A stretch of DNA of 40,660 nt from positions 1-40,660 of the forward strand of contig DYRG01000025.1 of NCBI GenBank assembly GCA_020718845.1, given 5' to 3'. Below are positions 10,568-15,988 of the stretch, in pieces (positions within the stretch are counted from its first letter, which is position 1; every line of letters begins with the position of its first letter). A program made the translations under genes and the position numbers. The notes beneath the pieces were generated by a model. It was not told the DNA's origin. It did no database searches and saw only the letters and a program-made list of their open reading frames with translations. This stretch comes from Thiomargarita sp. GTDB lineage: Bacteria > Pseudomonadota > Gammaproteobacteria > Beggiatoales > Beggiatoaceae.

Positions 10568-12391
10568 TCATTTCTTTGAAGAATTTTGGGAAGGAATTTT
10601 TAATTTTTCATCTGATTTTTTCTCTTCTTTTTTCATTAAATGCTCAGAGACGTGAAATCCATGACAATCGACGCAAGTTGATTGTAATTTATCAGGAGAA
10701 TGAATTCCTTGATGGCAGCTTTGGCAAAGTCCAAGATCGGGTAATAAAATGTCGCTGCTATTATTAGATTCTTGCGCTAAATGACAACTTCCACAATTCA
10801 TTGTCAAATGCTTAAGATGAGAGAAACGCGCTTTAGGAAACCATTTCTGATTAATGCGTACAGGTGCAACCATCCAACGTGGTGGATTTTCTTTTTCTTT
10901 CTTTACAACGTGACATTCAACGCACAAACTAAATTCAAATATTTCTTCGGCAACTTTCTCTGCTTTATTATGCGCCCAATCTAATGCAATCATTCGGTCT
11001 TCAGCTTGTAATGTTTCATTAGGAAAACGCCCTTGTTTTACAATGGCTGGTGCGTTTGAATCACTATGATAATCACCTTTTAACGCCCGTTCTCCATAAT
11101 ATTCTTGTAATTGAAACATGATTTCACTGACTTTGCCATGTGGAACAGTTCGAGAAACATCTGATGCTTCAAAACTCAATGGGTGGCATTCCATGCAATG
11201 TTTCTCAAAATTAATTTTCTCAAAGCCAACGCCACCATTATCTAAAGCATGGCAGTTTTCACATTTCAAATATTTGATTTCTTCATTAAAGGTTGCTAAA
11301 CCTTTTTTGGTTACATGAACATCGTGAGGAAATTCTAAATTGGATTCTTCTCGATAAATATCATGATTTTCTTTATCGTCCATTGAGATGCGGGTTTTAG
11401 TTTCTTTACCATTTTTGAAACCCATTAAGGTTGGTTTAAATTGAGGATGTTCTAATCCAAAATCCCACGCATTTCCTAACTCAGTTGTAATGCCTTGTTG
11501 TTTAGTTAAATCACGATGACAATCGCTGCACAATTTGTCTTCACGGTTAATTAAAGCTCGTTTGCCATTATGTTCAACGTGGCATTCAACGCAGCGGGTG
11601 TGAATTAATTTGTCGAGCTTGAAAAATTCGGGATCGGTGTGAGAATGGGTCTTTTTGTGGCAACCCAAACACGCCGCATCGGTGACGCGCACAAATGGTT
11701 TTTGATGGCAAGACGTGCAATCTTTGCGAAAGAAAAGGTGCGCCGACGAAGTTTCACCCGATGCCCAAAATTTATCCGTCAAAATTTCAGGCATTTTGGG
11801 TAAAGGAGGAGGCGCAGGTGTTTGATCTAGCTTGATATTTTCATCGATGGGATTAAAAAATAACAACACTTGCTCAAAAATCGGTCGATAATAATTTTCT
11901 AAATAAACTGAAATGCTCGGAATTGCTAAGAAAATCAACAAGATACCAATAAAAAGACCCCACGCGACGGGACGAACTTTTAAACTCGTTTCGCTCAAAC
12001 GCATTTTGGCGCGAATTTGGGCTTGATTTTCAATCGCACGGGCGGGCGTGTGGCGAGTTTCGACTTCTAAAACAAGATCATAGCCGTGCCGAGGCGTTAA
12101 AACACGAATCAACGCATTTCCCACGCGAATCACGTCGCCGACTTGGATCAACGAATTTTGCACCAGCCGATCATTAATCCGAATCCCCGACGCGGGCTTC
12201 GCATCAATCCAAAACCGCCCACGCCCTAAATCGCTAATCACCGCATGCTGCAACGCAACCCGCAAATCTGGCAAAAAAACGTGCTGATCAACCGCCCGTC
12301 CTAATGTCAAAACTTCAACATTCACAATTCGGTCGTGATAAACCGCGCCTGTTTTCCCGTGTCGACTAATGGTACTAATTAAACAAAGCAT
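10568..12391 (-). CDS. FHA domain fused to a membrane-anchored decahaem cytochrome c
   Basis: This 607-residue protein has three parts. Residues about 25-105 form a forkhead-associated domain: the GR of LTLGRAVDQ, then DLRVALQHAVI, and GIRINDRLVQNSLIQVGDVIRV. FHA domains bind phosphothreonine. Residues about 141-164 are one membrane helix (VAWGLFIGILLIFLAIPSIS). The rest would be periplasmic and has ten CXXCH haem-binding motifs (CTSCH, CLGCH, CVECH, CSDCH, CENCH, CMECH, CVECH, CGSCH, CQSCH and CVDCH) with many extra histidines as distal ligands. So a cytoplasmic phospho-binding module is joined to a periplasmic electron-transfer module. It lies 86 bp after the SemiSWEET gene on the same strand. 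The electron partner is unknown. The C-terminus is lysine-rich. Confidence 0.85.
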   Translation of the reverse strand: MLCLISTISRHGKTGAVYHDRIVNVEVLTLGRAVDQHVFLPDLRVALQHAVISDLGRGRFWIDAKPASGIRINDRLVQNSLIQVGDVIRVGNALIRVLTPRHGYDLVLEVETRHTPARAIENQAQIRAKMRLSETSLKVRPVAWGLFIGILLIFLAIPSISVYLENYYRPIFEQVLLFFNPIDENIKLDQTPAPPPLPKMPEILTDKFWASGETSSAHLFFRKDCTSCHQKPFVRVTDAACLGCHKKTHSHTDPEFFKLDKLIHTRCVECHVEHNGKRALINREDKLCSDCHRDLTKQQGITTELGNAWDFGLEHPQFKPTLMGFKNGKETKTRISMDDKENHDIYREESNLEFPHDVHVTKKGLATFNEEIKYLKCENCHALDNGGVGFEKINFEKHCMECHPLSFEASDVSRTVPHGKVSEIMFQLQEYYGERALKGDYHSDSNAPAIVKQGRFPNETLQAEDRMIALDWAHNKAEKVAEEIFEFSLCVECHVVKKEKENPPRWMVAPVRINQKWFPKARFSHLKHLTMNCGSCHLAQESNNSSDILLPDLGLCQSCHQGIHSPDKLQSTCVDCHGFHVSEHLMKKEEKKSDEKLKIPSQNSSKK

Positions 12392-12477: not shown

Positions 12478-12732
12478 TTAACCAAATTTGATTTTGAGAA
12501 CTAAGATAAGTAAGTTGAGAACTAAAGTAAGGCTATTTGCAAAAATAATCGGTAAAGAACCAATTAAAAAACCGTAAATCAACCAACATAACACGCCAAA
12601 GGAAAAAATGAGCAACATTGCATAAGAAATATCTTTTGCTGAACGATTTTTCCACACTTTAATCAACTGCGGTAGAAATGCCACAGTCGTTAAAGTTGCT
12701 GCTAAATATCCAATTAAAACAACATGATCCAT
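12478..12732 (-). CDS. SemiSWEET-type sugar transporter (PQ-loop)
   Basis: This 84-residue membrane protein has three predicted helices and the PQ-loop signature FLPQLIKVWK with P21-Q22. The middle reads AKDISYAMLLIFSFGVLCWLIYG. SemiSWEETs dimerise to pass sugars down their gradient, but bacterial members are diverse and the substrate here is unknown. It begins 1 bp after the end of the upstream metallo-hydrolase gene, so the two are co-translated. Length and helix number are those of complete SemiSWEETs. Confidence 0.88.
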   Translation of the reverse strand: MDHVVLIGYLAATLTTVAFLPQLIKVWKNRSAKDISYAMLLIFSFGVLCWLIYGFLIGSLPIIFANSLTLVLNLLILVLKIKFG

Positions 12733-12733
12733 T

Positions 12734-13705
12734 TTATTTCACAATCGTTTGGGTTTTATCCCACCAAAATTCTAATCCTTGCGCATTTAATTCAATATCC
12801 GATGCTAATAATTCACGGCATTTTTTATCGGATAATCTGCAATCATTTGCTCGAATTTGTTTGAGAAACAACGCAAAGATTTTTTCTATTAAAATTTGAT
12901 GACGCACAGTTTTATCTGAGGTTTCTTGAGAACTTTCTCTCACTAAATTAACCATGTCGTCAATTGTTTTGATTAAATAATCGATATAAAAAACAGGATT
13001 AGAAATCTCTGCAAAATGGGTTAAATAAATCTTTTCTGGTTGATAAGAAACTAAACGTTTCATTGACGCTTGCAATGCACCAGGATCAAATTGCGTTGGC
13101 GTAGTGGTTGGGAAAATAAAAATGCCTTTCTCCGTATCAAATTCACGATAAGAAAGTCCGTAAGTATCTCCCGTAAAAATACTTTTGCTTTTTTCATCTA
13201 AAACACAGAAATGATGATTTGCATGACCAGGGGTATCCCAAAAAGTTAAAGAACGTCCTTGAAAATTTAATTCAAATTCATCTGACGCTTGAATAACACG
13301 ATTCGCATCAATCGGCGGTAATTCTCCATATAATTCAATAGTTTGTTTTTTACCATACACTTCAATAGTTGCTGCCATTAAACGACTTGGATCGATCAAA
13401 TGTCGAGCACCACGCGGATGAACAACTAATTGAGCATTTGGACAAACTTGCATTAATGCACCTGCCCCACCCGCATGATCTAAATGAACGTGCGTGACAA
13501 TAACAAAATCAACATTTTCTAAAGGAACTTTTTTAGCATTTAGGGTTTCTAGCAATCGAGGAAGTGTTTTAGTTGTACCTGTATCAATAAAGGTTGCATG
13601 ATTGTTTTCAATAATCAAATGACTTGCAACCATTTGTGGTCGCATATAACCCGTATCAATGGTTGTAATTCCGTGCGCCCAATCTTGAAAGAAATGGTTT
13701 TCCAT
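12734..13705 (-). CDS. MBL-fold metallo-hydrolase
   Basis: This 323-residue protein carries the metallo-beta-lactamase metal site H72-x-H74-x-D76-H77 (THVHLDHAGG). Later metal ligands lie in DTPGHANHHFCVLD and FTGDTYGLSYREFD. The fold covers residues about 10-230, and the C-terminal 90 residues are helical and of unknown role. It is not a glyoxalase II or RNase Z by motif order. It belongs to a widespread environmental MBL group with unassigned substrate. It is 25 bp after yrfG and 1 bp before the SemiSWEET gene in a run of same-strand genes. Confidence 0.82.
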   Translation of the reverse strand: MENHFFQDWAHGITTIDTGYMRPQMVASHLIIENNHATFIDTGTTKTLPRLLETLNAKKVPLENVDFVIVTHVHLDHAGGAGALMQVCPNAQLVVHPRGARHLIDPSRLMAATIEVYGKKQTIELYGELPPIDANRVIQASDEFELNFQGRSLTFWDTPGHANHHFCVLDEKSKSIFTGDTYGLSYREFDTEKGIFIFPTTTPTQFDPGALQASMKRLVSYQPEKIYLTHFAEISNPVFYIDYLIKTIDDMVNLVRESSQETSDKTVRHQILIEKIFALFLKQIRANDCRLSDKKCRELLASDIELNAQGLEFWWDKTQTIVK

Positions 13706-13730
13706 TATTTATAAACTCCTTTGAGAAAAT

Positions 13731-14393
13731 TTATTTATTAGGGATTATCTGTGCAAAACTTTCTAATACATCAAAATCATCTAAGTTTCTTGGAGGTTGT
13801 TTGGTATCTGGATTACGCACAACTAACAAATGTTGAAATCCATATTCTCGAGCAGCATTTAACACTGACAAACTATCATCAATTAACAAAGTATGCGCAA
13901 GTTCAAAGGGATAAATTGTTTGTAATTTATGCCAAAATTCAGGTGTTTCTTTAGGAAATCCCAAATCATGTGAAGAAATCACTTGATCTAAATATTCACC
14001 AAACATTGTTTTACGCATTTTCAAATCAATACTCTTTTGATGCGCATTGGTTACTAAAATAATTGGACGTTGCGTTTTTTTAACCGCTTGTAAAAACTCA
14101 ATGACAAAAGGATGTTCAGCAATTAAATGTGCCACTTCTTCTTTTAATAATGCAATATCTAAACCGAGTTTTTCTGTCCAAAAATCAACACAATACCAAT
14201 TCAATGTTCCTTCAACTGCTTTACATTCTGCATAAAATTGTTCTTTCGCAATTTCTAAAGAAAGATGCTTGTATTTTGCGTAATGCTGCGGAACGTGTTC
14301 TCGCCAGAAATAATTATCAAAATGTAAATCTAGCAATGTCCCATCCATATCTAAAAATACGGTATGAATATCCGACCAATTTAAGTTGTTCAT
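13731..14393 (-). CDS. yrfG: GMP/IMP nucleotidase, HAD family (YrfG-like)
   Basis: This 220-residue HAD hydrolase has catalytic D15 and D17 in FLDMDGTLLDL. The YrfG-like opening is DIHTVFLDMDGTLLDLHFDNYFWREHVP, motif II is ILVTNAHQKS, and motif IV is TLLIDDSLSVLNAA. E. coli YrfG dephosphorylates purine nucleotides such as GMP and IMP. The start overlaps the bcp stop by 4 bp, which indicates coupling. Substrate specificity is carried over from the family, not shown by the sequence. Confidence 0.85.
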   Translation of the reverse strand: MNNLNWSDIHTVFLDMDGTLLDLHFDNYFWREHVPQHYAKYKHLSLEIAKEQFYAECKAVEGTLNWYCVDFWTEKLGLDIALLKEEVAHLIAEHPFVIEFLQAVKKTQRPIILVTNAHQKSIDLKMRKTMFGEYLDQVISSHDLGFPKETPEFWHKLQTIYPFELAHTLLIDDSLSVLNAAREYGFQHLLVVRNPDTKQPPRNLDDFDVLESFAQIIPNK

Positions 14394-14842
14394 GTTAAAG
14401 ATTTCAATTTTTCTAAGACTTCCTCAACATGATGATCGATTTTTTTGATGCCGCGCCATTCGTGTTTTAATTCACCGTTTTTGTCGAACAAAAAGGTGCT
14501 GCGATCAATGCCGCGTGCGGGTTTTCCAAACATCATTTTTGATTTCATGACACCAAAATGATTACATAATTCTTCTTTTGAATCGGATAATAAATCAAAA
14601 GGGAAGTTGTATTGTAATTTGAAAGCCTCATGTTTCTTTATTGAATCTCTTGAAACTCCTAAAATAGTTGCACCCAAATTTTGAAACTCAGAGAAATGAT
14701 TTCTGAAATCTTGACCTTCTTGAGTACAACCAGGGGTATCGTCTTTGGGGTAGAAATATAAAATAACGGGTTGTCCTATTAAAGTAGACAAATCAATGTT
14801 TTTATTACCTGTTGCGGGTAAGCTCATGTTTGGTAAGATCAT
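14390..14842 (-). CDS. bcp: Thioredoxin-dependent thiol peroxidase (peroxiredoxin Bcp/PrxQ)
   Basis: This 150-residue peroxiredoxin has the peroxidatic cysteine C39 in YPKDDTPGCTQE. The Cys found five residues later in E. coli Bcp is absent (GCTQEGQDF), so it is a one-Cys type or uses another resolving Cys, such as the one in EELCNHFG. It reduces hydrogen peroxide and organic peroxides with thioredoxin. The gene overlaps gcvR upstream and yrfG downstream by 4 bp each. The gcvR-bcp order is conserved from E. coli. Confidence 0.93.
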   Translation of the reverse strand: MILPNMSLPATGNKNIDLSTLIGQPVILYFYPKDDTPGCTQEGQDFRNHFSEFQNLGATILGVSRDSIKKHEAFKLQYNFPFDLLSDSKEELCNHFGVMKSKMMFGKPARGIDRSTFLFDKNGELKHEWRGIKKIDHHVEEVLEKLKSLT

Positions 14843-15366
14843 TTTAGAGGTCCCATCACTGCATCTAAATTCAAATCATCACACATATCCATAAACTCAT
14901 TACGCAGTTTTGCAATGGATAAATCGGCAGGAATACTAATGGTCATATTCATTGAAAACATTTGCGTTCCAGTGTGAGGAGCAGCATAACTAGAAGTCGA
15001 TAAATCCTCAATGTTAATTTGATAATCCGACATGAATTTTGCAATGTCGTGAACAATGCCGGGATGATCCATTGAAACCACTTCAACGATATAAGAAAGT
15101 TGGTTTTTGGTAATAGAACGATTTTCAGTGCGTTTAGAAACAATAATCAAATCAAGTTTCTTTTCCAAACGAGGCAAAGAATTTTCTAATTTAACGATTG
15201 CATCCCAAGTTCCGCCGAGCAACATAATGACGGCAAATTCACCGCCGAGAACGGTCATGCGGCTGTCGGTGATATTACACCCACAATCAGTAATGGAATG
15301 ACTAATCGATTGAACGATGCCAGAGCGATCTTGACCGATGGCGGATAAAACGAGTAGGCTTTGCAT
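14839..15366 (-). CDS. gcvR: Glycine cleavage system transcriptional repressor (double ACT)
   Basis: This 175-residue protein consists of two ACT domains. The first opens with LLVLSAIGQDRSGIVQSISHSI and the second with YIVEVVSMDHPGIVHDIAKFMSD; both carry the D-x-G-I turn that binds small ligands. GcvR acts by binding the activator GcvA and blocks gcv expression when glycine is low. Its partner GcvA is not in the window. AAAGGAG lies 7 bp before the ATG, it is 25 bp from pdxH, and it is coupled to bcp. Confidence 0.9.
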   Translation of the reverse strand: MQSLLVLSAIGQDRSGIVQSISHSITDCGCNITDSRMTVLGGEFAVIMLLGGTWDAIVKLENSLPRLEKKLDLIIVSKRTENRSITKNQLSYIVEVVSMDHPGIVHDIAKFMSDYQINIEDLSTSSYAAPHTGTQMFSMNMTISIPADLSIAKLRNEFMDMCDDLNLDAVMGPLK

Positions 15367-15391
15367 AATTTTCTCCTTTTTTTGTTTTAAA

Positions 15392-15988
15392 TCAGGGGTT
15401 TAGTAGTGAAGAAGTCCATTCACCGTCTTTTTTAACATAACGCACGCGATCATGCAAACGAAACGGACGTTCTTCCCAAAATTCAATGAGTTGCGGCGTT
15501 AAACGATAACCCGACCAATGTGGCGGACGCGGAATATTTGAATCGGTAAATTGACGGGCAAAATATTCATAACGATCTTCTAAAACTTTACGATTTTCAA
15601 TGGGTTGCGATTGTTGAGAAGCCCACGCGCCGATCCGACTTTCTAGTGGACGAGTTCGCCAATACGCATCGGCTTCCTCATCGCTGACGATTTCCACCGT
15701 TCCTTCGACACGCACTTGAGTTTTCAAGGTTTCCCAATAAAACAACAACGCCGCTCGGGGATTTTCTTTTAATTCATCACCTTTGCGACTTTGAAAATTC
15801 GTATAAAAAACAAAGCCTTGCTCATCGGCATCTTTGAGCAAAATCACCCGCGCCGAAGGTTTTCCGTTCGCATCGGCGGTCGCAACCGTCATCGCATTCG
15901 GATAAGTGAGTGGTAATTGTTTGGCTTGCTGCATTAAAGTGTAAAATCGTTGCAACGCTTGCGTATATAAAGACATCTTGTTTTCCAA
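15392..15988 (-). CDS. pdxH: Pyridoxine/pyridoxamine 5'-phosphate oxidase
   Basis: This FMN enzyme oxidises PNP or PMP to pyridoxal phosphate, the cofactor used by HisC and GlgP in this window. The protein is 198 residues from 15988; an in-frame ATG four codons on (15976) may be the true start. Diagnostic blocks are PNAMTVATADANGKPSARVILLKD, FYTNFQSRKGDEL, ALLFYWETLKTQVRVEG and RIGAWASQQSQPI. The usual C-terminal R-L-x-P is altered to SSLLNP, which is worth noting but common as a variation. It is first in a run leading to gcvR. Confidence 0.94.
   Translation of the reverse strand: MENKMSLYTQALQRFYTLMQQAKQLPLTYPNAMTVATADANGKPSARVILLKDADEQGFVFYTNFQSRKGDELKENPRAALLFYWETLKTQVRVEGTVEIVSDEEADAYWRTRPLESRIGAWASQQSQPIENRKVLEDRYEYFARQFTDSNIPRPPHWSGYRLTPQLIEFWEERPFRLHDRVRYVKKDGEWTSSLLNP

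Follow-up and report, generated by a model that had tools for sequence, protein, structure and literature searches.

An FHA-decahaem cytochrome of Thiomargarita sp. and its two protein partners: a candidate three-component electron-transfer module

What would an FHA domain, a fold associated with the reading of phosphorylated threonine, do at the inner end of a membrane-anchored cytochrome? The question is raised by a gene in a stretch of 40,660 nucleotides of Thiomargarita sp. (contig DYRG01000025.1; here called the window, always at its full length). On balance we think that its product, anchored in the membrane with its ten haems in the periplasm, is one of three components of a module that transfers electrons across the inner membrane. 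The features of the gene are the following:

10568..12391, (-): FHA-TM-decahaem cytochrome gene, a single intact open reading frame of 607 aa plus stop
12056..12391, (-): predicted cytoplasmic FHA beta-sandwich, residues 1-112 (Pfam, AlphaFold model, Foldseek)
12119-12307, (-): Pfam FHA core (PF00498), residues 29-91
11903..11977, (-): single transmembrane helix, residues 139-163 (hydropathy and AlphaFold model)
10643..11779, (-): predicted periplasmic decahaem part, residues 205-583
11705..11719, (-): CXXCH 1
11657..11671, (-): CXXCH 2
11579..11593, (-): CXXCH 3
11516..11530, (-): CXXCH 4
11249..11263, (-): CXXCH 5
11183..11197, (-): CXXCH 6
10910..10924, (-): CXXCH 7
10781..10795, (-): CXXCH 8
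10712..10726, (-): CXXCH 9
10661..10675, (-): CXXCH 10

A sequence-only reading of this DNA had described a protein that combines an FHA domain with a single membrane helix and ten CXXCH motifs, and the open reading frame, Pfam, the structural model and the alignments all confirm that layout. The FHA domain scores 29.8 bits against PF00498, for which the cut-off is 20.7. In an AlphaFold model built from 36 sequences, residues 1-110 have block pLDDT values mostly of 90-97, whereas the haem part, built without haems, is modelled with lower certainty. A Foldseek search of the PDB gives the FHA structures of GarA and OdhI as top matches. Hydrophobicity in 19-residue windows peaks at residues 142-164, and the model puts the helix at 139-163. 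The ten CXXCH motifs (residues 225, 241, 267, 288, 377, 399, 490, 533, 556 and 573) are invariant in two alignments, of 10 and 36 sequences with the window's protein in both, so the pattern is not due to chance. The window's genome has no second FHA match at E 0.001, and homologues spanning most of the length were found in 10 of 94 other related genomes; in genome G004 a run of N splits the gene into pieces with four and six CXXCH. An identity with YscD-like proteins of type III secretion was rejected, the Pfam match to Yop-YscD_cpl being weak (E 4.4e-4, under the cut-off).

For the family as a whole, a census was made at the window and 90 loci, wherever ORF calling found the gene, of open reading frames that have 10 or more CXXCH; 74 were found, and dropping seven whose last 300 residues matched another's exactly left 67 members. 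Exactly one helix lies between FHA and haem parts in 64 of them, and in 59 of the 67 the N side of the helix is the richer in K/R (in the window's protein, three such residues on the N side and one on the C side). No signal peptide was seen in the window's protein, which starts directly with the FHA domain. These features fit an N-in/C-out topology, with the FHA domain in the cytoplasm and the haems in the periplasm, and they bear out the earlier placing of the N-terminus in the cytoplasm rather than in the periplasm.

The strongest guide to function comes from two other proteins, here labelled c1 and c8. Of 95 genomes, the window's included, the same 11 contain the FHA-cytochrome, a strong c1 match (E <1e-57) and a full c8 match (>900 bits), and the remaining 84 have none of the three; the thresholds were chosen after the score gap was visible, the next best values being 3e-22 for c1 and 202 bits for c8. 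For one pair the hypergeometric probability over the 95 genomes is 1.3e-14, with kinship ignored. A class-wide sample of 321 genomes contained the FHA-cytochrome in 14, and both partners were present in 14/14 (the c8 gene of G253 being truncated where its contig stops). Both partners without the FHA-cytochrome were met in only one of the other 307 genomes, G268, which is 88% complete and whose c1 match lies close to where a contig stops.

Gene order tells the same. Linkage was counted at the best 80 of 196 loci, the denominators being loci with enough flank or a hit; neither these loci nor the genomes sampled are independent. On the same strand, c8 lies upstream of the FHA-cytochrome at 70 of 76 loci, and neighbours include c1 (73/78), an HbpS-like gene (58/75), a predicted barrel, c6 (63/73), and an LVIVD-decahaem gene (53/62); a c554-like tetrahaem gene is a neighbour on either strand at 34 of 56. 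The usual cluster has haem counts of 10 (FHA), 10 (LVIVD) and 4 (c554-like). The barrel call for c6 was made by eye and has no Pfam match, and a 'porin-like' label is weak, since NCBIfam DESULF_POR1 gives it 21.9 bits where the cut-off is 250. Not every carrier has the LVIVD-decahaem protein: it occurs in 10 of the 14 class-wide carriers, plus G268, and was not found in the window's genome, where a weak match covers the LVIVD-repeat part only.

Five exceptions to the linkage are relatives of the window (L042-L045 and L113), with genes mostly scattered. The window's own genome (G000) carries c8 at C13:47024-49420 (-) and c1 at C92:15255-16139 (-), both on contigs other than the window's. In this genome and five relatives the three genes are mostly scattered and all are retained; in Ca. 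Venteria c1 is still close to the FHA-cytochrome gene. In all three gene trees these six members of the window's family group together as a single clade (support 1.0, 0.983 and 1.0). Moreover, over 42 genomes or loci carrying all three genes, tree distances correlate with r of 0.81, 0.81 and 0.78, values reached by 0 of 999 permutations. Judged by gene content, linkage and trees, c1 and c8 are obligate partners of the FHA-cytochrome.

According to record titles, the carriers include relatives of Ca. Venteria and Thiomargarita, Lysobacterales, Nitrosomonas, Steroidobacter and Woeseiaceae, a sporadic distribution in the Gammaproteobacteria. The titles of L072, L074, L077, L095 and L104 (Klebsiella, Marinimicrobia, Rheinheimera, Bordetella) are unlikely for the sequence and were not used as taxonomy. 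Two neighbourhoods deserve a separate mention. At L036:7693-9333, titled Thiomargarita, a NuoE-NuoF fusion gene stands in front of the FHA-cytochrome gene in the same orientation, with 5 bases between the two. On contig C13 of the window's genome (L168:9016-17425), dsrAB, dsrEFH and dsrC-like genes, recognised by eye, lie about 2 kb from c8; by eye, no such run is seen in the other relatives listed.

The first partner, c1, is a probable membrane dihaem cytochrome b of the PCC3/PCC4 type. All 51 distinct c1 open reading frames have two WX3HX13H motifs, 50 of them have SGxxG, and both kinds of motif are present in the protein of the window's genome. For proteins of this type, five membrane helices are expected, the third and the fifth bearing the His pairs. 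Hydropathy of the protein of the window's genome shows four segments, and its AlphaFold model has helices at 12-30, 44-67, 77-99, 107-140 and 239-300, of which the third bears H84 and H98 and the last H279 and H293. A fold search with this model gave helical bundles with poor superposition and no cytochrome-b match. Two WX3HX13H motifs and SGXXG in about 300 aa are the marks of the inner-membrane proteins of PCC3 and PCC4 in the available text of He 2017 (PMC5566968), where the motif pairs are interpreted as binding two b haems.

The second partner, c8, joins a Pyr_redox FAD/NAD(P) oxidoreductase with a thioredoxin-reductase-like fold, two cNMP domains and Fer4 in one chain according to Pfam, and matches PF13247 as well. 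In the protein of the window's genome, PF00027 covers two stretches with 113.6 bits, and by domain content c8 belongs with predicted cAMP/cGMP-binding proteins. Sixteen cysteines in four ferredoxin groups are invariant in 10 aligned c8 sequences and are arranged for four predicted [4Fe-4S] clusters. A thioredoxin reductase was considered and rejected: the protein of the window's genome has no redox CXXC before the ferredoxin part, and TIGR01292 gives 71 bits against a cut-off of 343. No hydrophobic anchor was found in the first 100 residues of any of 53 distinct full open reading frames, and an internal 19-residue stretch exceeds the hydropathy threshold in 11 of the 53; by its sequence, c8 is a soluble cytoplasmic protein.

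We infer that the three proteins bind one another and carry the cofactors that their motifs predict. Electrons would then pass from NAD(P)H to FAD, along the Fe-S wire of c8 to the two b haems of c1, and through the ten c haems into the periplasm, an order proposed because of the order of the cofactors. In lineages with the LVIVD-decahaem and outer-membrane-barrel genes, they would go onward, towards the outer membrane. Electron transfer across the envelope, which the sequence-only reading had proposed, is therefore the part of that proposal that gains from c1, c8, the multihaem neighbours and the barrel; its control by phosphorylation, as discussed below, does not.

The direction of flow is where the best surviving alternative lies. 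The module could instead trade with the quinone pool and might run inward, for uptake from, e.g., Fe(II), with c8 in a minor or regulatory role. We think this unlikely. Electrons that leave NAD(P)H for the periplasm move downhill both chemically and electrically, which counts against it, as do the co-inheritance of c8, as strict as that of c1, and the full NAD(P)-FAD-Fe-S set that c8 has by sequence. In its favour, a quinone-active cytochrome b is proposed for the inner-membrane proteins of PCC3/PCC4 in the available text of He 2017 (PMC5566968). Iron oxidisers speak for it too: in the accessible parts of Hoover 2023 (PMC10734462), a 'Forkhead-associated protein' with 10 CXXCH (MMSeqs2 cluster 403) is reported from 27 of 87 iron-oxidising Gallionellaceae genomes. 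It has a table row there under 'Other' and one main-text mention, with no partners, topology or function given in those parts. Likened by name and haem count, cluster 403 is probably the same family as the FHA-decahaem protein.

The role of the FHA domain within an outward-running module depends on its binding site. Residues were assigned by alignment to FHA structures and read from two agreeing alignments, in which single positions of the most divergent members may be misaligned. We take it that in canonical FHA domains Arg, Ser and the Asn of NG contact the phosphopeptide, the His being structural. The equivalent positions in the window are:

12296..12298, (-): Arg32, the retained FHA Arg, kept in 58 of 67 members
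12254..12256, (-): Ala46, at the canonical phosphate-contacting Ser; Ser in 3 of 67
12245..12247, (-): His49, the retained structural His, kept in 63 of 67
12188..12190, (-): Ser68, at the canonical Asn of NG; Asn in 1 of 67

Arg, Ser and Asn occur together in 0 of the 67, whereas ordinary FHA proteins of related genomes are canonical at every position in 11 of 11 cases (13 control loci were taken, of which L016 and L025 did not align). As read from these alignments, the canonical phosphothreonine site is absent throughout the members examined, and the earlier idea that this domain reads threonine phosphorylation loses its footing. Loss of the contact residues from most homologues, which that reading had itself named as evidence against it, is largely what is seen; of the residues on which it depended, only the Arg and the structural His largely stay.

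The rest of the domain has not gone the same way. G31 is kept in 67 members, H49 in 63, A50 in 62, R32 in 58, N73 in 57, Q36 in 55 and L47 in 54. Because the fold and several loop positions stay conserved, a binding role other than phosphothreonine recognition, or a kept binding face rather than decay, is suggested. We think that the domain, needing no phosphate, would be a cytoplasmic dock that holds c8 against c1.

A comparison with cousin clusters points in the same direction. Four PCC3-like clusters (L169, L183, L185 and L186) have 21-haem and 19- to 52-haem cytochromes and a WX3HX13H membrane protein, and each is adjoined by an oppositely oriented flavo-ferredoxin protein (spread over two ORFs in L186). 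That flavoprotein is absent from the PCC3 components given in the available text of He 2017 (PMC5566968). In all four it has an N-terminal hydrophobic stretch, with best 19-residue means of 1.71, 1.59, 2.03 and 2.34, and FHA matches to the nine cytochromes are all unconvincing (one reaches E 0.52). Since the cousin flavoproteins have a putative N-terminal anchor and their cytochromes no convincing FHA domain, whereas here c8 is soluble and the cytochrome carries an FHA domain, the FHA domain may replace the membrane anchor.

Instead of holding c8, the domain could be a structural leftover or a module for self-association, as in the ring proteins of secretion systems. The weak Yop-YscD_cpl match and the loss of the phosphothreonine site lean that way, but the seven positions conserved in 54-67 of the 67 members suggest a kept binding face, and we consider this alternative rather improbable. 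Least probable is a phosphothreonine-binding FHA through which a Ser/Thr kinase would control or localise electron transfer, which can appeal to a real FHA fold with its phosphate-contacting Arg, to five Pkinase matches in the window's genome, to a Pkinase gene that adjoins the FHA-cytochrome gene in G004 and to kinases near 6 of 80 loci, but which meets the lost Ser and Asn, the canonical controls and a distribution of kinases that is irrespective of the gene.

That distribution also bears on the kinase neighbours that the earlier reading had named as something to look for. Of 49 related genomes, 46 have Pkinase (PF00069) whether or not they carry the FHA-cytochrome gene, so that its presence is uninformative, and among the 80 loci nearness to the gene is confined to those six. 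The G004 case is L040:8052-11727, where the gene right after the FHA-cytochrome gene encodes a Ser/Thr protein kinase and the FHA domain is broken by short repeats.

A cyclic nucleotide acting through c8 is a likelier regulatory input than a kinase. Its binding by c8 would be the control of the module, a suggestion made because c8 has two cNMP domains and class III cyclase genes lie near the cluster at 12 of 80 loci. Ten of these are at one fixed upstream place, four of the ten in records titled Woeseiaceae, and the ten may be one event; cyclase and kinase neighbour counts alike come without a background rate and from loci that are not independent. At L038:402-1385 (a contig of a Chromatiales MAG shared with L052) a class III cyclase gene is convergent with the FHA-cytochrome gene, end to end; the C-terminal part of this cyclase looks FHA-like by eye, and Pfam reported no FHA there. 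In its most specific form, the proposal is a new class of respiratory complex, an NAD(P)H:multihaem-cytochrome oxidoreductase gated by a cyclic nucleotide: the FHA domain, blind to phosphate, would clamp c8 onto the dihaem b protein, and a second messenger would switch the export of electrons from the cytoplasm to the periplasm or the cell surface; we offer this form tentatively, as possible rather than probable.

The immediate neighbourhood of the gene in the window adds little. At 12478-15988 there is a tight same-strand run of PQ-loop, metallo-beta-lactamase, HAD, AhpC/TSA-type peroxiredoxin and ACT-domain genes, with a pdxH-like gene, recognised by eye, following the ACT-domain gene. The run is probably an operon that has nothing to do with the redox module. 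When the window and 10 homologous loci were compared all against all (links >70 bits), no relative of these genes was found beside the homologues. The position behind a peroxiredoxin and other stress-type genes, pointed out earlier, is real but weak: the PQ-loop, metallo-beta-lactamase and HAD genes intervene, and the neighbourhood is not conserved at the 10 homologous loci. Promoter and terminator scans of the window gave numbers of sites not above those of shuffles, an Rfam search of it gave no match, and a plasmid search with an unrelated stretch of it found nothing.

Several known systems resemble parts of this construction. GarA and OdhI, whose solved structures come nearest to the FHA part, bind metabolic enzymes even when these carry no phosphate; they are soluble, free of haem and membrane, and keep the canonical phosphothreonine residues. 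Hmc, Tmc and Qrc of sulfate reducers combine an Fe-S protein, a membrane cytochrome and a periplasmic multihaem cytochrome, as the present module does, but with other membrane and Fe-S subunits, and they are not known to include a cNMP flavoprotein or an FHA domain; NCBIfam HmcA and QrcA score far under their cut-offs. Among NCBIfam families of the Geobacter ext operon (selenite/tellurite reduction), ExtM, ExtN and ExtO resemble stretches of the LVIVD-decahaem protein, each under its cut-off, whereas the FHA-cytochrome and c1 have no match to ext proteins.

The closest likeness is to PCC3 and PCC4, with which the module shares multihaem c cytochromes and an inner-membrane protein bearing SGXXG and a pair of WX3HX13H motifs (available text of He 2017, PMC5566968). 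In PCC4 subgroup II a pfam13247 Fe-S gene lies upstream of the membrane protein, and c8 matches PF13247; the PCC4 gene is described there as separate, unlike the fused cNMP-flavo-Fe-S arrangement of c8. The same text gives medians of 21 and 34 haems for the periplasmic and extracellular cytochromes of PCC3, which come with a porin, and 4, 5 and 10 haems for the periplasmic cytochromes of PCC4, which come with a porin, a membrane protein and an Fe-S gene. PCC3 is not matched: the FHA protein has 10 haems, and no gene for a 21- or 34-haem type of cytochrome is among the window's ORFs. At two of 80 loci, L069 and L072, proteins with 5, 4 and 10 haems around c8 and c1 equal the PCC4 counts; most full clusters have 10, 10 and 4 haems, and the copies in the window's genome lie scattered. 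At these two loci (L069:390-3853, L072:483-2219) the 5-haem cytochrome is upstream of a run of tetrahaem, c8, c1 and FHA-decahaem genes, preceded likewise in L069 by a gene for a 545-aa protein without a Pfam match, and despite room there is no downstream c2 or c6 (in L069 no c7 either). To judge from the descriptions, some PCC4 clusters in print may have as their decahaem protein a relative of the FHA protein or the FHA protein itself. The PCC accounts in the available text of He 2017 (PMC5566968) mention neither an FHA fusion nor a cNMP-flavo-Fe-S protein.

The literature searched gave no description of an FHA-multihaem fusion or its partners beyond the Hoover 2023 row, and the passages of the Sideroxydans literature searched contain neither 'forkhead' nor 'FHA'. 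The earlier statement that no function is described for this arrangement stands for the fusion and its partners in the literature searched; the membrane component is of a published kind. What is new here is the FHA-cytochrome with its cNMP-flavo-Fe-S partner.

In our opinion, the main gain is that an orphan fusion becomes a defined three-subunit module with testable partners, sporadic in Gammaproteobacteria and probably present also in Gallionellaceae. The FHA domain would be a case of a fold retained for another purpose after the loss of its phosphate site. For bacteria of this kind, whose extracellular electron transfer is otherwise mostly guessed from lists of cytochromes, the module may let electrons pass straight from NAD(P)H to acceptors in the periplasm and perhaps outside the cell, and a second messenger may be the switch on that route.
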